This document shows positions 5,443 through 63,139 of a DNA stretch of 64,000 bases, one piece after another (position 1 is the first letter of the stretch; each line of letters opens with the position of its first letter). Under the pieces are notes generated by a model that saw only the letters and a list, made by a program, of their open reading frames with translations, made no database searches and was not told where the DNA came from. Made by a program: the position numbers and the translations under genes. Source of the DNA: Candidatus Saccharicenans sp. (GTDB lineage Bacteria; Acidobacteriota; Aminicenantia; Aminicenantales; Saccharicenantaceae); contig JASEIU010000001.1 of assembly GCA_030017715.1 (NCBI GenBank), forward strand, positions 520,677 to 584,676. The letters are read 5' to 3'.

Positions 5443-7629
5443 ATGTTGAACTCTATTTTCTGGCTGGCACCGGCCGCATCGGTTCTGGCTCTTTTTTTTG
5501 CCTGGTTGTTTTACAGCCAGATGAAGAAACTGAGCGAGGGCACGGAAAGAATGGCCAGGATTGCCTCCTATGTCAGGAAGGGGGCTATGGCCTATCTGAA
5601 GCAACAGTATAAAGTGGTTATAATCGTTTTTATCTGCCTGATTCTTCTTCTGGCGTTTATGGCCCTGGTGCTTAAAGTACAGAATAGATGGGTGCCGGTG
5701 GCCTTTCTGACCGGCGGCTTTTTCTCCGGTCTGGCCGGTTTTTTCGGGATGAAGACCGCCACCTACGCTTCCGCCCGCACCGCCAACGCGGCCCGCAGCT
5801 CCCTGAACAGTGCTTTGAAGGTGGCCTTCCGCAGCGGGGCGGTTATGGGGCTGACGGTGGTCGGACTGGCCCTGCTGGATATTTCTCTCTGGTTTTTAAT
5901 ACTGAAACACTTTTACCCGATTTCAGATGAGCATAATCTTATTTTGATTACCACCACCATGCTGACTTTTGGCATGGGAGCTTCGACCCAGGCCTTGTTT
6001 GCCCGCGTCGGCGGCGGCATCTTTACCAAGGCCGCCGATGTCGGAGCCGACCTGGTCGGGAAGGTTGAGTCCAACATTCCCGAAGACGACCCCCGAAACC
6101 CGGCGGTTATCGCCGACAACGTCGGCGATAACGTCGGCGACGTGGCCGGAATGGGGGCCGACCTTTACGAATCCTATGCCGGCTCCATCCTGGCCACCGC
6201 GGCTCTGGGAGCCTCAGCCTTTATGGGTGAGGGGATTCTTCAGCTCAATGCCGTTATTGCCCCCATGGCCATCGCTGCCGTGGGAACCCTGCTTTCCATC
6301 CTGGGCATTTTCTTCGTGAAAACAAAGGAAGGAGCAACTCAGAAAGACTTGATCAACGCCCTCGGCCGGGGCATAAATGCCAGTTCAGTGTTGATAATCG
6401 TTTTTTCTTATTTCATCATTCAGTTCCTGAAGCTGCCGCGCGGCGTCTGGCTGGCTCTGGTGGCTGGACTGCTGGCCGGAATAGCCATCGGTAAATCAAC
6501 CGAATATTTTACTTCCCACTCATTCAGGCCGACTAAAAGGATTGCTCACAGCGCCACCACCGGAGCGGCTACGGTTATCATCTCCGGCATCGGCACCGGA
6601 ATGCTGTCAACCTCCGTCCCGGTTCTGGCCGTGGCTGTGGGCACGATCCTGGCTTACCTTTTTGCTTCCGGCTATAACCTGACCAATGTCGGTCAGGGTC
6701 TTTACGGGATTGGCGTTGCCGCGGTCGGGATGCTGTCCACCCTCGGAATCACCTTAGCCACCGATGCTTACGGGCCGATCGCCGACAATGCCGGCGGCAA
6801 CGCCCAGATGTCCAACCTGGAACCGGGAGTCAGACAGCGCACCGACAGCCTTGATGCCCTGGGCAACACCACCGCCGCCACCGGCAAGGGTTTTGCCATC
6901 GGCTCGGCCGCCCTGACGGCTCTGGCTCTGCTGGCCTCATATGTCGAAGAGCTCAAGGTCGGTCTGCTGCGCATCGGGCAGAACACGATTCAGATGGTCG
7001 ACGGGCGGGTGATCGAGACGGCCAAAGCCGGCGTCCTGGATTTCATGGACTATTTTCGGGTGACCCTGATGAATCCGATCGTCCTGGTGGGAATGTTCAT
7101 CGGGGCGATGATGGCTTTCGTCTTCTGCGGTCTGACCATGCAGGCCGTGGGCAAGGCTGCCGGGAAGATGGTGGACGAAGTTCGCCGCCAGTTCAAGGAA
7201 ATTCCGGGTGTCTGGGAAGGGACGGCTGATCCTGATTACGCCCGCTGTGTGGCCATTTCCACCAAGGGGGCCCAGAAGGCAATGATGGTGCCGTCGCTGG
7301 CGGCGATTGTGGTGCCGATAGCTACCGGGCTTTTACTGGGAGTCGGTGGCGTGATGGGGCTGCTAATCGGAGCCACCACGGCCGGGTTTGTTCTGGCTGT
7401 TTTCATGGCCAACTCCGGCGGCGCCTGGGACAACGCCAAGAAGTTCATTGAAGAGGGCAACCTCGGCGGCAAAGGCTCAAATGCCCACAAAGCTGCAGTG
7501 GTCGGGGACACCGTGGGCGATCCCTTCAAGGATACTTCGGGTCCCAGCCTGAACATCCTGATCAAGTTGATGAGCATGGTTTCCATCGTCATGGCCGGTC
7601 TGACCGTGGCTTTTTCCATTATTAAATGA
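5443..7629 (+). CDS. hppA: Membrane-bound ion-pumping pyrophosphatase
   Basis: 728 residues with about 16 transmembrane helices, the normal size. The enzyme couples hydrolysis of pyrophosphate to pumping of H+ and/or Na+ across the inner membrane. The pyrophosphate/Mg site is intact: [11 protein letters not shown], then [19 protein letters not shown], with later DNAGGNAQM and [15 protein letters not shown] loops. The segment [14 protein letters not shown] carries Ala where K+-independent enzymes have Lys, which by family rule predicts a K+-dependent subtype; whether it pumps Na+, H+ or both cannot be read here. AGGAGG precedes the ATG by six bases. It has its own promoter upstream and terminator downstream, so it is monocistronic. 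Confidence 0.97.
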
Positions 7630-53017: not shown

Positions 53018-56000
53018 ATGAAGTTCAAAACAGTCGCCCGGTTGGCGGTGATTCTGCTGGTGGTCGGGCTGGTTCCTCTTCAAGCCCAGAGTGTTTCCGA
53101 CTTGCTCTCTGGCCTGAAGCCCAGGAACATAGGTCCGGCCAACATGAGCGGAAGGATCGGGGCCATAGAAGCGGTTGCTTCCGACCCCAGGATTATTTAC
53201 GTCGGCGCGGCAGCCGGAGGCGTCTGGAAATCGACGGATGGCGGGTTGACCTGGAAGGCCGTCTTTGACGACCAGCCGGTGGCTTCAATCGGAGCCATTG
53301 CCGTCTACCAGAAGAATCCTAATATAGTCTGGGTCGGCACGGGTGAAGCCGCACCCAGAAATTCGGTCAGTGTCGGACGCGGCGTTTACCGGTCCCTGGA
53401 CGGCGGTCAGACCTGGCAGCTGATGGGCCTGGAAAAGACTGAAAAAATAGCCGATATCATCATCAACCCCGATAATCCCGACCTGGTTCTGGTCGGCGCT
53501 CTGGGGGCTACCTGGGGCGACAGTCAGGATAGGGGGGTTTATAAGACCGCAGACGGCGGCCGCACCTGGAAAAAGGTCCTTTACATCAACGAAAAAACCG
53601 GCGTCTCCGACATGGCCGTTGACCCGGCCGACCCCAATCATATCATAGTGGCCATGTGGGAACACCGGCGTTATCCCTGGTATTTTGTTTCGGGCGGACC
53701 GGGAAGCGGTCTTTACGTCAGCCGGGATGGCGGAGAAACCTGGACCCGGTTGACCGAGAAGAATGGACTGCCTTCCGGAGACCTCGGACGATGCGGAGTG
53801 GCCTTCGCTCCCGGCCGGCCTAACATTGTCTATGCTCTGATTGAAGCCAGCAAAAACGGTTTTTATCGCTCGGTTGATGGCGGAGAAAACTGGACTCTGG
53901 TTAACGGCGAAGCTGATGTCCACAACCGTCCATTCTATTACAGCCGGGTTCAGGTGAATCCCGCCAACGAGAACCTTGTCTATCTGCTGCAGACCCAGCT
54001 CCGGGTGAGCGAAGACGGCGGGAAAACTTTTCGGGCCCTGACCGTTTTCAACCAGGCCCATTCTGATTTTCATGCCATGTGGATCAGTCCGGACGGCGAA
54101 AGGCTGTATGTAGGTAACGACGGCGGCGTGGTCCTCAGCCATAACCGCGGGCAAACCTGGCGTTTTGTGGAGAATCTCCCCCTGGCCCAGTTTTATCATA
54201 TTAATTACGATATGCAGATTCCCTATAACGTTTACGGCGGACTTCAGGATAACGGGACCTGGGTGGGGCCAGCCTACGTGCTGAATGAAAGAAACGTGGC
54301 CTTCTATCACTGGAAGACCGTAGGCGGCGGCGACGGTTTTGATGCCGCTCCCGACCCGGAAAAACCGGGTTGCGGCTACGGCATGTCCCAAGGCGGCAGC
54401 CTTTATTATTTTGATATCAATACCGGCACTACCAGGAATATTGTGCCCACGGAATCCGAGGTCAAGCACCGCTTCAACTGGAATGCCGGATTTGCGGTCG
54501 ACCCGTTCAATCCTTCTACCATCTATCTGGGCAGCCAGTTTGTCCACCGCAGCCGGGATAAAGGCCGGAGCTGGGAGATAATTTCCCCGGACCTGACCAC
54601 CAACGACCCCGAGAAGCAGAAACAGAGCGATAGCGGCGGACTGACTCTCGATGTGACCAGTGCTGAAAATTACTGCACCATTCTCAGCATCTCACCAAGT
54701 CCGCTAAGAGAAGGACTAATCTGGGTAGGCACTGATGATGGTAATGTTCAATTGACCAGGGACGGCGGTAAGAGCTGGGAGCTGGTATCAAAAACCCTGA
54801 CCGGCGGAAAAAAACCTCTGGTGCCAGCCGGAGCCGCGGTGCCCCACATCAAGCCAGGCCGGTTTGAGGAGGGCACAGCTTATGTGGTTTTTGATGACCA
54901 TCGTCGTTCCAATTTCACTCCGTATATTTTTGTAACCAGAGATTACGGGAAGACCTGGAAGAGTCTGGCCAGTCCCGAAATAGACGGCTATTGCATGGCC
55001 ATAGAGGAAGACCCGGTCAACAGGAACCTGCTGTTTCTGGGAACCGAATTCGGTCTATTTGTCAGCCTGAACGGCGGGCAAAACTGGTTCAAGTGGACCA
55101 GCGGTTTTCCGACCTGCCCGGTCTATGACCTGGCCGTCCATCCCCGGGAGCACGACCTGATTGTGGCCACTCACGGCCGGGCCGTTTACGTGTTTGATGA
55201 CATTTCGCCGCTGAGAGAGCTGACGGCCGAGGTAATGAAAAAGAAACTGCACCTCTTTAAGGTCAATGATGCCTTTCAATTCCTGACCGGCCGGATGTCT
55301 TCCTACATGAGCCCTGGCGACGGCGAGTATCTGGCCCAGAATAAGCTGACTGGAGCAGTCATAACCTATTTTCTCCTGCCGTCAGAGAAAAAGGCCGAAG
55401 AAACTGAAACTCCATCTCCGGAAATGGCTCAGATGCAGGAAAGAATAGCCCAGTTTACCCAGCGAAGCGGGCTGGATATGGCCGCTATGAGACAGATGAT
55501 GGGGCGGGGCAGGGTGCAGATAACCATAACCGATTCTCAGGGGCGAGTAATCCGGCAGATGAACGGTCCGGAGGAAAAGGGCCTGAACCGGGTTTACTGG
55601 GATTTTCGGGAGATGGAACCGGTTTCTCCTGGAGAGATGATGTCGACTCAGGCCGCCGGCCGGGCGGCAGCCGGTTTTTTTGGCGGCCGCGGAGGCCTGA
55701 CCGTGTTGCCGGGAACCTATACGGTTAAGGTCAGGTATGAAGACCAGGAAGTCTCCCAGAGCTTTGAAGTCAAAGCCGACCCCAGGTTGCAGATTGACCC
55801 TGCAGTGCTCAAAGCTAATTACGAACAGGCCAGGGAAGCCCAGAGGTTGTCCAGGGCCTTGCAGACGGTAAGCCAGAGGTTGCAACAGACTCAGCGGGCG
55901 CTGCAAACGGTCAGAGAATTTTCGCAGGGCCAGCGTAATCAGAAGATGGCGGAAGTGATGAAAAAACTGGACGGCGTCGAGAAAAGGCTCAAGGACTTAA

Positions 56001-56281
56001 CCGAAACTCTTAATCCCACTCCTCCCCGGCAGGGCCTGGCCGACAGGTCGTCCGGGTTGATGTCGCAGGTGAACGGCGCCGTTGGCGGGATTACCGCTGC
56101 CGGTTATGAGCCGGTCAGCCAGCCGGCCCGGGTCAGGTATGAAAAAGCCAGGGCCAGATTCGGCGACTTCCTGAAGCAGGTCAACGATTTTTATGAAAAA
56201 GATGTGGCCGAGCTTAACAAAGCCCTGCAGGAGATGGGCTTTACCCTGCTCCAGAATTATCCTCCACTGAAGATTGACTGA
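53018..56281 (+). CDS. Exported BNR/sortilin-type beta-propeller protein with C-terminal extension
   Basis: 1087 residues. A signal peptide ends near PLQAQS. At least ten Asp-box motifs (STDGGLTWK, SLDGGQTWQ, TADGGRTWK, SRDGGETWT, SVDGGENWT, SHNRGQTWR, SRDKGRSWE, TRDGGKSWE, TRDYGKTWK, SLNGGQNWF) occur in the first ~720 residues and end VYVFDDISPLREL, where the paralogue at 45692 stops. The extra ~340 residues hold a beta-sandwich-like segment (VQITITDSQGRVIRQMNGPEEKGLNRVYWDF; LPGTYTVKVRYEDQEVSQSF) and a helical, Gln-rich coiled coil (REAQRLSRALQTVSQRLQQTQRALQTV). Probably surface-exposed; substrate unknown. Confidence 0.9.
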   Translation: MKFKTVARLAVILLVVGLVPLQAQSVSDLLSGLKPRNIGPANMSGRIGAIEAVASDPRIIYVGAAAGGVWKSTDGGLTWKAVFDDQPVASIGAIAVYQKNPNIVWVGTGEAAPRNSVSVGRGVYRSLDGGQTWQLMGLEKTEKIADIIINPDNPDLVLVGALGATWGDSQDRGVYKTADGGRTWKKVLYINEKTGVSDMAVDPADPNHIIVAMWEHRRYPWYFVSGGPGSGLYVSRDGGETWTRLTEKNGLPSGDLGRCGVAFAPGRPNIVYALIEASKNGFYRSVDGGENWTLVNGEADVHNRPFYYSRVQVNPANENLVYLLQTQLRVSEDGGKTFRALTVFNQAHSDFHAMWISPDGERLYVGNDGGVVLSHNRGQTWRFVENLPLAQFYHINYDMQIPYNVYGGLQDNGTWVGPAYVLNERNVAFYHWKTVGGGDGFDAAPDPEKPGCGYGMSQGGSLYYFDINTGTTRNIVPTESEVKHRFNWNAGFAVDPFNPSTIYLGSQFVHRSRDKGRSWEIISPDLTTNDPEKQKQSDSGGLTLDVTSAENYCTILSISPSPLREGLIWVGTDDGNVQLTRDGGKSWELVSKTLTGGKKPLVPAGAAVPHIKPGRFEEGTAYVVFDDHRRSNFTPYIFVTRDYGKTWKSLASPEIDGYCMAIEEDPVNRNLLFLGTEFGLFVSLNGGQNWFKWTSGFPTCPVYDLAVHPREHDLIVATHGRAVYVFDDISPLRELTAEVMKKKLHLFKVNDAFQFLTGRMSSYMSPGDGEYLAQNKLTGAVITYFLLPSEKKAEETETPSPEMAQMQERIAQFTQRSGLDMAAMRQMMGRGRVQITITDSQGRVIRQMNGPEEKGLNRVYWDFREMEPVSPGEMMSTQAAGRAAAGFFGGRGGLTVLPGTYTVKVRYEDQEVSQSFEVKADPRLQIDPAVLKANYEQAREAQRLSRALQTVSQRLQQTQRALQTVREFSQGQRNQKMAEVMKKLDGVEKRLKDLTETLNPTPPRQGLADRSSGLMSQVNGAVGGITAAGYEPVSQPARVRYEKARARFGDFLKQVNDFYEKDVAELNKALQEMGFTLLQNYPPLKID

Positions 56282-56698: not shown

Positions 56699-57574
56699 AT
56701 GAAAAGGCCAACAGCAGTTTTGATTTTGCTTCTCTGGCTGGCCGGGGCTCTCTTTCCGGCCGACCTGAAGTTTGTGGTAATCTCTGACACCAATCCCGAG
56801 TTTCTTAACCAGAAGGATTTTTCTCATTTTGAAAAGGCTATCGAGAAGATTAATGCCCTGAGACCTGACCTGGTGATAAATCTGGGCGACCTGATTTATG
56901 GTTACGGGCTGCGCAGCACCAGGCCCCAGTGGGAAAGATACCTGGAGATTGTCGGCCGGATTGAGTCTCCCTATTACCAGGTTCCCGGTAACCACGATGT
57001 CTTCAATCACCGGGCCAGGCAGGTCTACCTCGAATTTTTCAGGAAGAGCTACCTGTCCTTCGACCTGGGGAACTGCCACTTTGTGCTTCTGGACAACCTG
57101 GAAGACGGCCTCTGGGGAAAAATCGGGCCGGAGCAGCTGTCCTGGCTGGAAGAAGACCTGAAGCGACCCCGCTGGGACCAGGCTTTTGTTTTCCTTCATA
57201 TTCCGGTCTGGGATATGAAGGCCCGCAATGTCAGGCCGGAATGGAGAGAATTCTGGTTTGAAAAAATTCATCCGCTGCTGCTGGCCGGCAGGGTGAAGGC
57301 GGTCTTTGCCGGTCACACCCACCGTTTCGGGCCGACCAGGATTTATGATGGCCTGATTTATTATATTGCTGGAGGAGGCAGCCCCAGGCTGCACAAAGAA
57401 TATGTCAGGGCCGGGGGCGGCAACTTTTTTCTGCTGGTGGAAGTCACGGAAAACGGGTTCCGGGTGAACGTAGTCTTTGAAAACCGGATTATCTCCGACT
57501 ACGAAGCCGATATCCTGCAGGAGATTATGGCTCCCCATTTTTACCGGCCCGGTGAGTTAAGTAAGCAGAACTAA
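56699..57574 (+). CDS. Exported calcineurin-like metallophosphoesterase
   Basis: 291 residues with a signal peptide (about 1-22, ending near LFPADL). The dinuclear metal motifs are FVVISDTNPEF (D30), INLGDLIYG, VPGNHDVF, FLHIPVWD and AGHTHRFGP. The first motif, normally D-x-H, has Asn32 in place of the His; the other ligands are intact, so metal binding may be altered. The family hydrolyses phosphomonoesters or phosphodiesters; the substrate is unknown. The TM2 gene follows 63 nt later. Confidence 0.88.
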   Translation: MKRPTAVLILLLWLAGALFPADLKFVVISDTNPEFLNQKDFSHFEKAIEKINALRPDLVINLGDLIYGYGLRSTRPQWERYLEIVGRIESPYYQVPGNHDVFNHRARQVYLEFFRKSYLSFDLGNCHFVLLDNLEDGLWGKIGPEQLSWLEEDLKRPRWDQAFVFLHIPVWDMKARNVRPEWREFWFEKIHPLLLAGRVKAVFAGHTHRFGPTRIYDGLIYYIAGGGSPRLHKEYVRAGGGNFFLLVEVTENGFRVNVVFENRIISDYEADILQEIMAPHFYRPGELSKQN

Positions 57575-57637
57575 TCTTTGACTTTTACGGGGATTAGGCT
57601 TACTGTATTTAAAAAATTACCTTTTCATGGAGGGCTG

Positions 57638-57892
57638 ATGTCCGAAAAATCTCGTCTGGTGGCTTTTCTGCTGTGCTGGCTGTTCGGCATTTTTGGCGGT
57701 CACCGCTTTTATGTGGGCAAGACCGGAACCGGCCTGGTCTGGCTGTTTACCCTGGGCTGCCTGGGAATCGGAGTGCTGGTCGACCTGATCATGATTCTCC
57801 TGGGCAAATTCTATGACGTTCAGAACAAGCCAGTCCTGGTCTGGTTCAGGAACTGCGATGCCGAGGGCAAGGTTCTGAGCTATTCAGTTTGA
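57638..57892 (+). CDS. TM2-domain membrane protein
   Basis: 84 residues from MSEKSRLVAFLLC; GGAGG sits four bases upstream. The TM2 signature is plain: two helices with the motif FGIFGGHRFYVGKTGTGLVWLFTLGCLGIGVLVDLIMIL, joined by a short loop containing the conserved Gly-x-His-Arg-Phe-Tyr and Asp. A short charged tail follows. Function is not established for bacterial members. It is probably cotranscribed with the phosphoesterase. Confidence 0.88.
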   Translation: MSEKSRLVAFLLCWLFGIFGGHRFYVGKTGTGLVWLFTLGCLGIGVLVDLIMILLGKFYDVQNKPVLVWFRNCDAEGKVLSYSV

Positions 57893-57971: not shown

Positions 57972-59264
57972 TCAGGCCGCCCGGCCGAGAGCTTTTAAGG
58001 CTTCAGCTACTCTGCCCACCGCCAGAACGTAGGCTGCCTCCCGCATCGGCAGCTTGTGTTTTTCCATCAGCTCCACGATTTCCCGGAAAGCTTTTTTCAT
58101 TTTCCTTTCCAGCTTGTCGGTGATTTCTTCTTCGGTTAGAAAGAAACGCTGCAGGTCCTGAACCCATTCCAGATAGGAAACGGTCACCCCGCCGGCATTG
58201 GCCAGGATGTCCGGGCAAACCAGGACGCCATTGTCCACCAGGATGCTGTCGGCTTCGGTGGTGGTTGGACCGTTGGCCCCTTCCAGGATTATCCTGGCCT
58301 TGACCTGGCCGGCATTGCCCCGGTGAATCTGGCCCTCGGTGGCGGCCGGGATGAGAATATCGCACTCCAGGGAAATCAGGCTGTCGTTGTCGAGCGGTTC
58401 AGTGCCAGGAAAATTAACCACCGAGCCGGTTTTCTTAACCTGCTTTTCCAGCTCAAAGGGGTCGATTCCCTTATGGCTGTAGACTCCCCCGAAGATATCG
58501 GTGATGGCGATAATCCTGCAGCCGGCTTTATGCACCAGCTTGGCAATCGAGGACCCGACGTTGCCGAAGCCGAGGATGGCCACGGTTCGGCACTCAAAAT
58601 TCAGGCCCAGGTACTTAAGAGCTTCTTCCAGAACAAAAAACAGACCGGTTCCGGTGGCCATGGCCCGACCGAGAGAGCCTCCCAGGTGAACCGGCTTTCC
58701 GGTAACCACCGCCGGCTCCAGATAGCCGCAGGCCTGGCTGTAGGCGTCGGCTATCCAGGCCATGGTCTGGGCGTTGGTGAACATGTCGGGAGCCGGAACA
58801 TCCTTATAAGGCCCGATGATATCTCTTATGGCCAGAGTGTATTCTTTGGTGAGTTTTTTCAACTCGTTTTCCGACATCTTGAGCGGGTCGCAGATAACCG
58901 CTCCCTTGCCTCCGCCGAAGGGCAGGTCGACCACCGCGCATTTCCAGGTCATCCAGGTAGCCAGGGCCTTGCATTCGCTGATTGAGGCGTTGGGAGAGAA
59001 CCTGATGCCGCCCTTGGCCGGCCCCCTGACCGTTGAATGCTGCACCCGGAAACCGGTGAAGACCTCAGCCCGACCGTCATCCATGGTAATCGGGATGTGG
59101 ACTGTCAGTTCTCTCTCCGGGTATTTCAGACGTTGATAAATCCAGGGATCAAGGTCCAGGAAGTTGGCCGCCTTTTCAAATTGAAGTGTGGCCTCAAAAA
59201 AGGGGTCATATTCCTTGGTCTCGGGAATCGGATGAATATAATGCACTCTGGCTCTTTCTGGCAT
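57972..59264 (-). CDS. gdhA: Glutamate dehydrogenase family enzyme (Glu/Leu/Phe/Val)
   Basis: 430 residues, typical of the hexameric ~48 kDa class. AAGGAG precedes the ATG. It interconverts glutamate and 2-oxoglutarate plus ammonia. Active-site blocks are VQHSTVRGPAKGGIRFSPNAS, MTWKCAVVDLPFGGGKGAVICDP, and VTGKPVHLGGSLGRAMATGTG; the nucleotide fold is AILGFGNVGSSIAKLVHKAGCRIIAITD, with an Asp after the second strand that favours NAD. Residues DILIPAATEGQIHRGNAGQVKARIILEGANGPTT complete the family pattern. It lies 13 nt after a small gene and behind a sigma-54 promoter, next to a sensor kinase/NtrC-type regulator pair. Confidence 0.95.
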   Translation of the reverse strand: MPERARVHYIHPIPETKEYDPFFEATLQFEKAANFLDLDPWIYQRLKYPERELTVHIPITMDDGRAEVFTGFRVQHSTVRGPAKGGIRFSPNASISECKALATWMTWKCAVVDLPFGGGKGAVICDPLKMSENELKKLTKEYTLAIRDIIGPYKDVPAPDMFTNAQTMAWIADAYSQACGYLEPAVVTGKPVHLGGSLGRAMATGTGLFFVLEEALKYLGLNFECRTVAILGFGNVGSSIAKLVHKAGCRIIAITDIFGGVYSHKGIDPFELEKQVKKTGSVVNFPGTEPLDNDSLISLECDILIPAATEGQIHRGNAGQVKARIILEGANGPTTTEADSILVDNGVLVCPDILANAGGVTVSYLEWVQDLQRFFLTEEEITDKLERKMKKAFREIVELMEKHKLPMREAAYVLAVGRVAEALKALGRAA

Positions 59265-59277
59265 TGGCTCTCCTTTT

Positions 59278-59529
59278 TTAAGAAATTTCTTTCACCAGCA
59301 GACGGAGCAACTTTCCGTATCCGGCTTTCTCAAAGCGGCTAATCGGTATTTTCTTATCACGATAATAGAGGTAATGGGTGGTTATTTTGATCCGCTGCGA
59401 TTTGCGGGGGGCCGGTTCGGCTGTTTCCGTATCCCTGATTTCAGGAAATTTTATAATCTTGGCCTTTGGTTGGGTTTGTTTTTCTTCTTCTTTCAGTTCT
59501 TTCTGGGTCAGAGGCAGTATATTTTTCAT
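59278..59529 (-). CDS. Small protein of unknown function cotranscribed with gdhA
   Basis: 83 residues from MKNILPLTQKELKEEEKQ, with GGAGGTCACG directly before the ATG. The first ~45 residues are charged and probably disordered (EEEKQTQPKAKIIKFPE; PAPRKSQRIK). The last ~35 (ITTHYLYYRDKKIPISRFEKAGYGKLLRLLVKEIS) look like a small folded beta-beta-alpha unit. I do not recognise the family. It is the first gene after the sigma-54 promoter, and its stop lies 13 nt before the gdhA start, so it may regulate or modify that enzyme. Confidence 0.7.
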   Translation of the reverse strand: MKNILPLTQKELKEEEKQTQPKAKIIKFPEIRDTETAEPAPRKSQRIKITTHYLYYRDKKIPISRFEKAGYGKLLRLLVKEIS

Positions 59530-59550
59530 CGTGACCTCCACAGTTATAGG

Positions 59551-59566
59551 TGCAATTGTTGTGCCA
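59551..59566 (-). promoter_or_regulatory. Sigma-54 (-24/-12) promoter upstream of the small gene and gdhA
   Basis: On the minus strand, TGGCAC-AACAA-TTGCA: the GG and GC dinucleotides are exactly 12 bp apart, as sigma-54 requires. The expected transcript start is near 59540, giving a ~11-nt leader that contains the GGAGG ribosome site before the ATG at 59529. Confidence 0.85.
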
Positions 59567-59617
59567 GAAATATCTTATTGAAAATAAATTAGATGGCATG
59601 GGTTATTGGGCAGGATG

Positions 59618-59645
59618 TTGCAATTTGCAATATTGCAAATTGCAA
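59618..59645. promoter_or_regulatory. Perfect 28-bp palindrome, likely activator binding site
   Basis: TTGCAATTTGCAAT followed by its exact reverse complement, so each half holds two TTGCAA-type half-sites. Its centre lies about 90 bp upstream of the predicted sigma-54 start, the normal place for an upstream activating sequence. It lies four bases beyond the end of the NtrC-type activator gene. Confidence 0.8.
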
Positions 59646-59648
59646 AAA

Positions 59649-61013
59649 TCAATTCTTCCAGGCCTTAAGCTTACGGTACAGGGTGGCCGGATTAAGTCCG
59701 AGAATTCTGGCTGCCTGAATTTTATTATGGCCAGTATGCACGAGGACTCTGGCTATGTAGGCCTTTTCCAGGTTGTCAAGAGTCGGCCAGTTCCTTGAGA
59801 TGTCCGACAGGACTTTATCTTCTGGAAGATTGAGTTCCTGCCTTATTTCCTGAGGCAGGAACGACAGATGGATATTCTCCGCCTGGTAGAGGGACATTAC
59901 CCTTTCCACGGTGTTCCTTAATTCACGGACATTGCCGGGCCAGGAATAATTGATCAAGGCCTGAGCCGCTTCCGGTTCCAGGCCTCTGTAATTTCTCTTT
60001 ATTTCCCGGTTGAATTCTTCCATGAAAGATAGGACCAGGGGAATGATATCCTCTTTCCTCTCCCGCAGGGGTGGAATGGTTATGGGGACGACGTTCAGCC
60101 GGTAAAAAAGGTCCGGGCGGAAATTTCCCTTTTCAGTTTCTTTAGCCAGGTCGCGATTGGTGGCGGCGATAATGCGGACGTTAATTTTTATCGGCCGGGA
60201 TCCTCCCAGCCTGACAAAAGTTCCGTCTTCCAGCACTCTCAGGATCTTGGCCTGGAGAGCAAGAGACATATCGCCGATTTCATCAAAGAAAGCTGTGCCC
60301 TCATCCGCCTTTTCCAGCAGGCCGATTTTCCTTTTCCGAGCGTCGGTGAAGGCTCCGGCTTCGTAGCCGAAAAGCTCGCTCTCAAGCAAATTTTCCGGGA
60401 TGGCCGCGCAGTTGATGGCCACAATGGGCTTCTCCGCCCGTGGGCTGTGGTAATGAATGGCCCGGGCCAGCAGTTCTTTGCCGGTGCCGCTCTCTCCCTG
60501 CAGGAGCACCGTCGTCCGTTCAGACCGGGCCACCCTGGCCGCCATATCCAGCACCTCCTTCATTTTTCTACTCTGAGCCACTATCTTTCCGAAATAATAT
60601 CGCTGTTTTTGCTTTTCGAACTCTTCCAGGAAGCGGAGCCGGAGCGACAGTGTTTCCAGGGCCCTCTGAACGGCGACTTTGAGTTCGTTGAGTTTGAAGG
60701 GCTTGAGGAGATAATCATAGGCGCCCAGCTTCATGGCTTCCACCGCTTTTTCCAGTATTTCGTAAGCCGACATCATAATGACGATGATTTCGCGGTCAAC
60801 TTCTTTGACTTTTTTTAGAACCTCCAGACCGGAAATTCCGGGCAGCACCAGGTCTAAAAGAATCAGATGCGGCCGGCGGCTTTCCAGAATCTCCAGGGCC
60901 CTTTCTCCTGATTCGGCCAGAATGATTTCGTAGCCTTCCTTTTCCAGGGCCTTCTTCAGGTTGTTGAGAGTCAGAATCTCGTCGTCAACCAGCATGATCG
61001 AGAAGGTTTTCAA
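59649..61013 (-). CDS. NtrC-family sigma-54-dependent response regulator
   Basis: 454 residues in three domains. The receiver domain (about 1-120) has phospho-acceptor D54 in LLDLVLPG and the conserved K104. The AAA+ activator domain (about 145-380) has Walker A GESGTGKE at 173-180, Walker B GTAFFDEIGD, and the sigma-54 contact loop GAFTDA at 220-225, a variant of GAFTGA. A Fis-type helix-turn-helix closes the protein (NKIQAARILGLNPATLYRKLKAW). It overlaps the kinase gene as ATGA, so both are coupled. The nearest likely target is the palindrome and sigma-54 promoter just downstream. Confidence 0.96.
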   Translation of the reverse strand: MKTFSIMLVDDEILTLNNLKKALEKEGYEIILAESGERALEILESRRPHLILLDLVLPGISGLEVLKKVKEVDREIIVIMMSAYEILEKAVEAMKLGAYDYLLKPFKLNELKVAVQRALETLSLRLRFLEEFEKQKQRYYFGKIVAQSRKMKEVLDMAARVARSERTTVLLQGESGTGKELLARAIHYHSPRAEKPIVAINCAAIPENLLESELFGYEAGAFTDARKRKIGLLEKADEGTAFFDEIGDMSLALQAKILRVLEDGTFVRLGGSRPIKINVRIIAATNRDLAKETEKGNFRPDLFYRLNVVPITIPPLRERKEDIIPLVLSFMEEFNREIKRNYRGLEPEAAQALINYSWPGNVRELRNTVERVMSLYQAENIHLSFLPQEIRQELNLPEDKVLSDISRNWPTLDNLEKAYIARVLVHTGHNKIQAARILGLNPATLYRKLKAWKN

Positions 61014-63139
61014 CTTATGACCTCCTCTTCTTTTTCGGTCGGTCGCCCTTTTTGTCTGATGGGCAGAATGATGGTAACGGTGGTTCCGGCTCCGGGCTGG
61101 CTCTGGACCCGGATGTCTCCGTTATGGCTTTTGATATAGGACAGGCTGATGCTCAATCCCAGTCCGGTGCCCTGGCTTTTCTTGGTGGTGTAAAAGGGGT
61201 CAAAGATTTTCTTCTGGTCTTCAGGACTTATTCCGTCGCCTGTATCTGAAATCTCCACCTGGACAAAGTCTTCGAACTTGACTTTGGATGTGGTCACCGT
61301 CAGCCGGCCGCCTCCAGGCATGGCCTGGGCGGCATTGATGAAAATATTGGTCAGAACCTGACGAATCTGGTTGAGGTCGGCGGTAACTGGCGGTAACTGG
61401 GGATAGAGCTTCTGTTCGGTCTGGATTTTTTTGAAAATGGGCTGATGGCTTAAGAAGGTCAGAGTGTCCATGACTACCTGATTCAGGTTGACCCTGGTAA
61501 ATCGCGGCGGTGCCGGGCGGGCGAAGTCCAGCAAGCCCCTGATCGTCTGGGAAATCCGGTAGACGTTTTCCAGAACCACTTCCATCTGCTGTTTCTTCTG
61601 GGTGTCGGTAGTTTCTTCCATCTGGATTTCGAGAAAAGAAGAAATTCCCAGCAGGGGGTTGTTTATCTCGTGGGCCGCACCCAGAGCCAGCTGGCTTAGA
61701 GCCGAAAGCTTTTCGTATTCAGCCAGCTTGTTGCGGAGTTTTTCTTTTTCGGTGACATTTTCAACCAGAATGGTTATTCCCAGCAGGCGTCTGCCGCCAT
61801 TGATGATGGGGAAAAAGGCCAGGTTGAAATACTCCTCTCCATGGCCGCGGTCGATTTTTCTGGCTGTCATCTGTCGGGCACTGGCTTCATTAACCGTGGC
61901 CCGGAAGGACTCCATGATTTCAGGATCTTTGAGAGCTGGCACCGCCTCAAACAGGATTTCACCCTTCCTGATTTCTCGGGTTTCGAACAGGGTCAGGAAA
62001 TGCCTGTTGAACTGGGCCAGTCTCCCTTCCAGGTCGGTGCCGGCCAGTCCCAGTGAAATGCTGTCAATGAGATGCAGGATGTATTGCTCCGACAGCTGGA
62101 GTTCTGCCGCCAGGTGCTGGCTTTCAAGGATCCGGTTTTCCAGTTCCCGATTTATCTTATCCAGTTGCTGCCGTCGTTCCCGGCATTCGTCCAGAGCCCG
62201 GGCCAGGTTGGCGGTAAGCTTCTGCACCAGTCCGGTGACCCTTCTGGAATACAGGTTGGAGATAATGATCAGGAAAAGAAAAGAGGGCAAAAAGAAATAG
62301 AGAATGATGCGGTTAAATCGCCTGACCGGAAGCAGGGCTTCCTGGAGGTCCATTTCCGAGGCCAGATAGATACTGGTGCCGGGCAGAAGCTGATAGGCGC
62401 AGAGGACTCTTTCCCCCCGGTAATCCTGGTGAACGATTACGCCGCTTTCCCCGCGGTGGGGATTGAAGTCGCCGGAGAAAGCCTTTTCAGCAAAGGGAAA
62501 AGCCCCCAGCTTGGTAGGAGACAGGATCAAGCCTTCCCGGCTCAATAGAAACAACTCGCTTGTCCTGCCCAGCCGCAGGTCCGAAATCAGGCCGTAAAGA
62601 TAATTCAGATTGAGAGAGGCTCCGATAACCCCGATTACCCGGCCCTCCAGGTTCAGCACCGGGTGAGAAATTACCATGACATTGGTTTCGGTTATATCCG
62701 AATAGAATATATCAGAAATAAAAGGTTGTCCCCCGGCGCAGGCTTGAAAATAATCACGGTCGGAAATATTGCCCTGGAGTTCGCGGTTGTAGGACCTGAC
62801 CAGGTCGCCCCGGAGATCGGCGATGAAGATAAAATCGTACCATTGCTTCCCCCGGATCAGGTTCAGGAAGATTTTTTCCTGTTCTCCCAGGCAGCCGAGG
62901 TCCTGGCAACTCAGGCGGGCCACCGAGCCCAGGTCGGTCATGCGGTCGTCCAGAAAAAGCTTGATGGTTTTCAGATTATTCTGAACCGCCCCCGCCAGTT
63001 GAGTATTAACCTGGTTTTTTATCACCCCGGAAATCTGCAGGTCGACCACCACCAGCAGCAGCAGGAATGGCAGGGCGAAAAAAGCCAGGGTCAGAAAAGT
63101 GTTCCTGGCGGTGAGTTTCCTGAAATATTTAGATGCCAA
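61010..63139 (-). CDS. Sensor histidine kinase with Cache-like and PAS domains
   Basis: 709 residues, started at TTG (63137-63139) with GGAG nine bases upstream. A first helix (about 14-32) and a second (about 278-296) enclose a periplasmic Cache-like sensor (DRDYFQACAGGQPFISDIFYSDITETNVMVISHPVLNLEGRVIGVIGASLN). A PAS domain (about 345-460; SISLGLAGTDLEGRLAQFN) follows a coiled coil. The kinase core has the H-box LALGAAHEINNPLLGISSFLE, N-box QVLTNIFINAAQAMPGGG, and DTGDGISPEDQKKIFDPFYTTKKSQGTGLGLSI. It phosphorylates the adjacent NtrC-type regulator. Cache domains often bind amino acids or organic acids. Confidence 0.95.
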   Translation of the reverse strand: MASKYFRKLTARNTFLTLAFFALPFLLLLVVVDLQISGVIKNQVNTQLAGAVQNNLKTIKLFLDDRMTDLGSVARLSCQDLGCLGEQEKIFLNLIRGKQWYDFIFIADLRGDLVRSYNRELQGNISDRDYFQACAGGQPFISDIFYSDITETNVMVISHPVLNLEGRVIGVIGASLNLNYLYGLISDLRLGRTSELFLLSREGLILSPTKLGAFPFAEKAFSGDFNPHRGESGVIVHQDYRGERVLCAYQLLPGTSIYLASEMDLQEALLPVRRFNRIILYFFLPSFLFLIIISNLYSRRVTGLVQKLTANLARALDECRERRQQLDKINRELENRILESQHLAAELQLSEQYILHLIDSISLGLAGTDLEGRLAQFNRHFLTLFETREIRKGEILFEAVPALKDPEIMESFRATVNEASARQMTARKIDRGHGEEYFNLAFFPIINGGRRLLGITILVENVTEKEKLRNKLAEYEKLSALSQLALGAAHEINNPLLGISSFLEIQMEETTDTQKKQQMEVVLENVYRISQTIRGLLDFARPAPPRFTRVNLNQVVMDTLTFLSHQPIFKKIQTEQKLYPQLPPVTADLNQIRQVLTNIFINAAQAMPGGGRLTVTTSKVKFEDFVQVEISDTGDGISPEDQKKIFDPFYTTKKSQGTGLGLSISLSYIKSHNGDIRVQSQPGAGTTVTIILPIRQKGRPTEKEEEVIS

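Follow-up and report, generated by a model that had tools for sequence, protein, structure and literature searches.

The question raised by the locus described here is whether a sensor histidine kinase and an NtrC-type response regulator, encoded directly beside a glutamate dehydrogenase (GDH) gene, form a switch devoted to that one enzyme. The genes lie on the minus strand of a 64,000-nucleotide stretch (hereafter the window, G000:C10:520677-584676) of a Candidatus Saccharicenans genome (assembly 2.89 Mb, completeness 92.6%), in the order recO, kinase, regulator, a 119-bp spacer, a small open reading frame (ORF) and gdhA. A preliminary description of the sequence had proposed that regulator, enhancer, promoter and target make up one self-contained sigma-54 module, and the conserved order, spacing and joint presence or absence found in relatives bear this out. 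We consider it likely that the module is a dedicated, single-target two-component sigma-54 switch for GDH.

The domain content of the two signalling proteins agrees with what had been proposed for them. The regulator (59649..61013, minus strand) consists of a receiver, an AAA+ sigma-54 activator domain with a GAFTDA loop and a Fis-type helix-turn-helix, and all three Pfam matches lie above cut-off (Response_reg PF00072, 102.6 bits; Sigma54_activat PF00158, 233.1 bits; HTH_8 PF02954, 47.8 bits). Its gene overlaps by 4 bp with that of the kinase (61010..63139, minus strand), whose dCache_1 extracytoplasmic sensor, HisKA and HATPase_c domains exceed their Pfam cut-offs, with a weak PAS match below its own (PAS_9, 20.5 versus 27). 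The genome also encodes rpoN (210 bits), which the description had named as a prerequisite. GAFTDA or GAYTDA loops are also found in two further activators of the genome (L159, L160).

The spacer between regulator and small ORF holds the putative regulatory DNA. A near-consensus -24/-12 element, TGGCACAACAATTGCA (59551..59566, minus strand), has GG and GC 12 bp apart in a TGGCAC-N5-TTGC context, and upstream of it lies a putative enhancer (59618..59645), a perfect 28-bp palindrome built as a double dyad, GCAwwwTGC-N6-GCAwwwTGC, with its core at 59620-59643. Both were compared across 19 orthologous spacers from 10 genera and 4 families (G083, where the contig ends, was omitted) and their scores tested against 300 dinucleotide shuffles. 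The -24/-12 element, with its GG-GC spacing, is kept in all 19 and its score is matched by at most 2 of 300 shuffles, in keeping with the description of it as a textbook sigma-54 promoter. The double dyad matches at 18-20 of its 20 fixed positions in every spacer, which none of the 300 shuffles reaches. Since the promoter weights are our own rendering of the sigma-54 consensus and the dyad pattern was derived from the scored loci themselves, these shuffle figures are descriptive; the geometry linking dyad and promoter is evidence free of such circularity. The conservation expected of the palindrome was found in part: the GCA/TGC double dyad is kept throughout, but the 24-bp core is perfectly palindromic in only three loci (G000, G005 and G043).

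This geometry is rigid. The dyad centre lies 65 bp from the T of TGG in seven loci and 66 bp in the other twelve, while the interval separating the dyad from the regulator gene can be as short as 8 bp (counted in the window from the last codon match) or as long as 603 bp. In G051, 603 bp separate regulator and dyad, versus 94 bp in its genus-mate G044, and the dyad-promoter block is intact. NtrC-type activators are often thought to tolerate varying enhancer distance, and a fixed enhancer-promoter spacing of 65-66 bp is unusual for this class. Mean column information, weighted by genus, is highest in the dyad (1.48 bits) and the promoter (1.31), followed by an A+T-rich block directly upstream of the -24 element (0.84), and falls to 0.67 bits in the dyad-promoter interval, 0.49 downstream and 0.28 upstream of the dyad. 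The A+T-rich block, TTTATTTTCAATAAGATATTTC (59567..59588, minus strand), is IHF-like in some relatives: the IHF consensus is matched at 9/9 positions in 5 of the 19 loci and at 7/9 in the window, most others being no better than shuffles, and an IHF site between enhancer and promoter is therefore left as a lead. The long spacer of G051 (L117, 1943-2175, between gdhA and regulator) contains two nested inverted repeats, with 28-nt arms at 1977-2004/2045-2072 and 26-nt arms at 1943-1968/2150-2175, and resembles a small mobile or repetitive extragenic palindromic (REP)-type element.

The distribution of the genes ties them together. Of 119 relatives, the own genome counted in, 19 have the small ORF, 19 a gdhA orthologue of at least 70% identity and 18 the kinase (E 1e-60 or better); the union of the three sets is 20 genomes. 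Contig ends account for the missing gdhA of G063 and for the missing kinase of G074 and G083; the remaining exception is G051, with its truncated small ORF. Kinase, regulator and next gene are collinear in 16 of the 20 module genomes; in G043 and G050 the kinase lies on a different contig. The gene recO is present in all 19 genomes of the genus, and in the 13 of them that lack the module it adjoins the TM2-domain gene that follows gdhA in the window (matches 31-222 bp apart in 12, 606 bp in G012), so that the four genes appear and disappear together. None of these 13 encodes the kinase at E 1e-60. G014 and G011 are neighbours on the recO tree (support 92/74, the branch not being a starred one), and what separates them at this locus is the stretch that begins just past recO and ends just past gdhA. 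Up to position 2071 of L024 their sequences agree at 96%, and from position 7340 onwards at 89%; in between, 28 bp in G011 replace about 5.27 kb.

Presence and absence of the module imply six state changes on the recO tree (5-6 in bootstrap trees, at least three by well-supported branches), and presence is not clearly clustered on it, 64-83 of 500 shuffles being as low. A position of recO no more than about 3 kb from the kinase recurs in G042, G036, G037 and G061, which belong to three further families, but not in the available stretches of G063, G048 and G081. Repeated loss of the whole block is thus the simpler reading, with gain as the alternative. In a phylum-wide sample of 396 genomes the small protein was found in ten, nine of this order (own genome included) and G177 of another family, which carries the whole module (L181, 6883-11929) with a perfect enhancer and a kinase match in two pieces, and which may have acquired it by transfer.

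The putative enhancer is also singular within genomes. The 28-bp palindrome has no second genomic copy at up to three mismatches. At up to two mismatches, the dyad pattern occurs in 19 of the 20 module genomes (once in 15, twice in four), with no match of the control pattern, and in one of 20 module-less genomes (13 of the genus, 7 of the family), which is noise level given that the reversed control pattern occurs in two of these 20. By motif, therefore, the regulator has a single target, and no more than two in the four genomes with a second site. Exact TGGCAYN5TTGCW sites number 15 in the own genome, the promoter of the module among them, and the reversed control gives one.

Three other explanations of these observations were weighed. 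Since the core of the palindrome begins 8 bp past the last codon match of the regulator in the window and the palindrome is a perfect inverted repeat, it could be a terminator or other RNA hairpin of the kinase-regulator operon, leaving only the -24/-12 element as regulatory DNA. Yet it is the distance to the promoter that is fixed in 19/19 loci and that to the regulator that varies. Moreover, pairing between A/T positions across the dyad is kept in 32 of 57 cells, a figure near chance, and most of the GCA/TGC letters are nearly invariant, which indicates a protein site rather than an RNA stem, and a simple scan of the spacer region (59500-59720) gave no terminator-like site; on spacing, pairing and scan we reject the terminator as highly improbable. 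Equally improbable is a circuit in which GDH is repressed, or in which a sigma-70 promoter does most of the work and the dyad serves as an operator. Some NtrC-type proteins do also repress. Against this stand the near-consensus -24/-12 element in 19/19 loci, the placement of the dyad at about -92, a usual activating place, and the nature of the sigma-54 holoenzyme, which remains closed until an activator acts; the same scan, which covers one promoter type, found no sigma-70-like site in 59500-59720.

Somewhat less remote, though still unlikely, is that the promoter is real and responds to another sigma-54 activator, the neighbouring pair acting elsewhere and its adjacency being historical. The genome offers candidates, with about ten strong Sigma54_activat matches (an eleventh is weak and means little, because the family matches in all 14 control genomes) and its 15 exact -24/-12 sites. 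However, kinase, small ORF, gdhA and enhancer co-occur or are jointly absent, and a regulator with several targets should sometimes outlive gdhA, whereas none of the 13 module-less genus genomes has kinase or regulator between recO and the TM2 gene, the interval to which the search for the regulator in these genomes was confined.

That confinement is one of several points that weigh against a dedicated single-target switch. The loci on which the enhancer pattern was scored are also those from which it was derived. The own genome holds, besides the module site, one further dyad site at three mismatches, and the second sites of 4 of the 20 module genomes are always two-mismatch sites; given the single three-mismatch site and the nearness of the relatives' extras to noise, a wider regulon was rejected. 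The sigma-54 contact loop reads GAFTDA in 15/15 module regulators examined, versus the textbook form GAFTGA. In G050, the kinase piece adjoining the regulator is 36% identical to that of the window, and the orthologous sensor lies on another contig. In G051, the small ORF is cut to 30 codons and the promoter retained, so that the small protein is not always needed. Finally, in G177 TGG lies 77 bp from the enhancer (66 + 11, about one helical turn further) and the -12 element is degenerate, with TCTC for TTGC.

For the dedicated switch, the following course of events can be proposed by analogy with what is known of these protein families. The membrane kinase would sense a small extracytoplasmic ligand and then phosphorylate the regulator, two dimers of which would sit side by side on the double dyad in a fixed helical register, with the dyad centre about 66 bp upstream of TGG and about -92 from the predicted start. 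The regulator ATPase would then open the sigma-54 holoenzyme at the -24/-12 element, activating rather than repressing a short operon that encodes the 83-aa protein and GdhA. Since no other recognisable site for the regulator is found in the genome, the whole device would serve to set GDH output.

The first gene of this predicted operon, the small ORF (59278..59529, minus strand, 83 aa plus stop), very likely starts at ATG 59529 rather than at the listed GTG 59541, because the ATG is preceded by GGAGG and the close relative G004 has an in-frame TGA in the upstream extension. Its product varies at the N-terminus, where an (I/V)I(P/K)(F/W)P motif is found; the C-terminus is conserved, and its model shows a beta-hairpin and a helix. 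Outside the C-terminus the model is poor (mean predicted local distance difference test, pLDDT, 64), which makes a fold search on it meaningless. No convincing relative was found in Pfam, NCBIfam, PHROG or the PDB, the PHROG and Pfam matches of one or two rows (E 0.004-0.2) being taken as chance. The ORF is under purifying selection: the ratio of nonsynonymous to synonymous substitution rates (dN/dS) is 0.09-0.14 in four of five within-genus comparisons, with dS near saturation (3.1) in one of these four and saturated in the fifth. A bolder reading, which we put forward tentatively and regard as doubtful, is that the small protein is an undescribed partner of GDH, be it a subunit with a regulatory or scaffolding role or an anti-activator that feeds back on the regulator. 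In this reading the four genes constitute a stand-alone sensing-to-enzyme cassette that is gained or lost as a unit, and its enhancer and promoter, in rigid register, form a single DNA element.

The putative target enzyme is encoded by gdhA (57972..59264, minus strand, 430 aa), whose product contains ELFV_dehydrog_N and ELFV_dehydrog domains, has GDH neighbours and belongs to the GdhA/RocG/Thermotoga type. Its nearest solved sequences are Thermotoga-type and archaeal GDHs, among them 1b3b and 1euz, and it is 94-95% identical in the closest Candidatus Aminicenantes and Candidatus Saccharicenans metagenome-assembled genomes of the named collection. With the NADP-specific model PRK09414 it reaches 242.3, where the cut-off is 536, which does not decide between NAD and NADP preference. 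A match to any GDH at E 0.001 is found in 110 of the 119 relatives, and among 19 places inspected, G051 left aside, where relatives encode other GDHs (40-54% identical), a related regulator lies nearby only at L118 and L130. One genome, G004, encodes a 962-aa NAD-type GDH outside the module (L197, 1629-4514; GDH2_N, GDH_2nd and Bac_GDH_CD), and several relatives show weak GDH matches in frames of about that length. If such a large NAD-type GDH is general in the genus, G004 alone having been checked, the gdhA of the module would be an accessory GDH, which would explain why it can be absent. Our guess is that its role is catabolic, that is, glutamate-oxidising. Related arrangements occur at L118 (2433-8380), where a class-mate (G098) has two tandem gdh genes followed by a dCache_1 kinase and an NtrC-type regulator, and at L034 (1867-6775), a Cloacimonadota contig on which two tandem gdh genes are followed by a histidine kinase running to the contig end. 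In the stretches examined, neither shows a convincing -24/-12 element upstream of gdh, and a gene set equal to that of the module is not supported at either.

As to what the kinase senses, the preliminary description had named external amino acids or organic acids. The sensor domain is modelled with confidence by AlphaFold (pLDDT 90.6), and its nearest PDB folds include the dCache sensors 3LIF, PctA with amino acids, KinD with pyruvate and DctB with malonate. An invariant arginine, R96, aligns with an arginine of KinD, presumably R131, which is mutated in the listed KinD structures. The motifs of the amino-acid (dCache_1AA) and amine (dCache_1AM) sensors share an aspartate at the position of PctA D173 and PctD D235, as stated in the account of these motifs (PMC10104139). 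In all 16 module sensors aligned this aspartate is absent, the position being Ser in 14, Gly in one and Tyr in one, according to a weak and not final phmmer alignment, from which the PctA numbering was inferred and in which Y129 and Y144 fall in place. On this ground amino-acid sensing is doubted, and that part of the claim is not supported. The pocket may be of a carboxylate type unlike the amino-acid and amine motifs, and as a guess we lean weakly towards an organic acid as ligand.

Beyond gdhA, the window continues with the convergent TM2-domain gene (57578-57892), a metallophosphoesterase gene (56699-57574) and the gene of a 1087-aa protein (53018-56281), read by eye as a repeat, propeller-like protein; in some of the 13 module-less genomes of the genus the latter two, like the TM2 gene, are kept beside recO. 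Across recO from the module, a second pair of kinase and NtrC-type regulator is encoded at L107, L109 and L113, in three genomes that belong to other families; the regulator is 40-42% identical, and in L108 a regulator is likewise found beyond recO. Elsewhere in the own genome, at G000:C10:513157 and G000:C11:30289 (L182, L183), exact -24/-12 sites lie less than 3 kb from other sigma-54 activators, and this genome may tend to place activators and their promoters side by side (3 of 15 exact sites, module site included).

How far the module departs from known systems can be judged from several precedents. RocR, the activator of the catabolic GDH gene rocG in B. subtilis, lacks a receiver domain and has a PAS sensor of its own; by this definition the module regulator, with a receiver and no Pfam PAS match, is not a RocR-type GDH activator. 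The likeness lies in the pairing of a sigma-54 promoter and an activator on a GDH gene: rocG is driven by RocR from a SigL (sigma-54) promoter, and RocR, whose signals are arginine metabolites, has rocABC and rocDEF as further targets (PMC4348106). The title of a reference cited there places an enhancer element downstream of the GDH gene in the RocR/rocG system. The module, by contrast, has a kinase-regulator pair, a receiver domain, an upstream double dyad and, by motif, one target. In Bacillota, GDH is named as one of the principal groups under sigma-54 control (PMC12316311), and the Geobacter sulfurreducens GDH GSU1305 is RpoN-dependent by microarray, but the available text describes no dedicated neighbouring kinase-regulator pair for it (PMC2725144).

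Among two-component systems, AauS-AauR of Pseudomonas is likewise a kinase with an NtrC-type regulator that acts with sigma-54 in glutamate use, and in PAO1 the AauR consensus is found at no gene besides aatJ, so that it too is a unit with one clear site; its target, however, is an acidic-amino-acid transporter, its site is TTCGG-N4-CCGAA, and glutamate dehydrogenase does not appear in the main text (PMC7962211). MifS-MifR of Pseudomonas aeruginosa is a sigma-54-type system for alpha-ketoglutarate, an organic acid linked to GDH, but it concerns the transport and use of that compound, and no GDH gene target is described in the available text (PMC4482717). NtrB-NtrC and AtoS-AtoC share the regulator architecture, and AtoS, AtoC and NtrC are among the best NCBIfam matches, yet the curated cut-offs are far from reached (NtrB/NtrC models TIGR01818 and NF008293, 428.3 versus 558.6 and 94.9 versus 240 bits; AtoS/AtoC models, 292.6 versus 646 and 444.4 versus 714 bits) and the module kinase has a dCache sensor. 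The contrast first drawn with the classical NtrB/NtrC system thus stands for domains and scores, but sigma-54 control of a GDH is not new in itself (PMC4348106; PMC2725144). No account of the circuit was found in the available literature on Aminicenantes with sigma-54, on Saccharicenans or on Aminicenantes with glutamate dehydrogenase (including PMC4897734).

Taken together, sigma-54 control of GDH and two-component sigma-54 units with one clear site are already known. The module differs from them in that its kinase and regulator would serve a single GDH operon, in the rigid block of double dyad and promoter, and in the small protein without known relatives. The module would represent a clean natural sigma-54 circuit of one sensor, one site and one operon in uncultured bacteria, and it links a protein of no known family to glutamate dehydrogenase. 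The several cases in which it is kept or lost make its function testable by comparison, and an operator that occurs once and is known base for base would give direct access to the cue on which these organisms run glutamate dehydrogenase.

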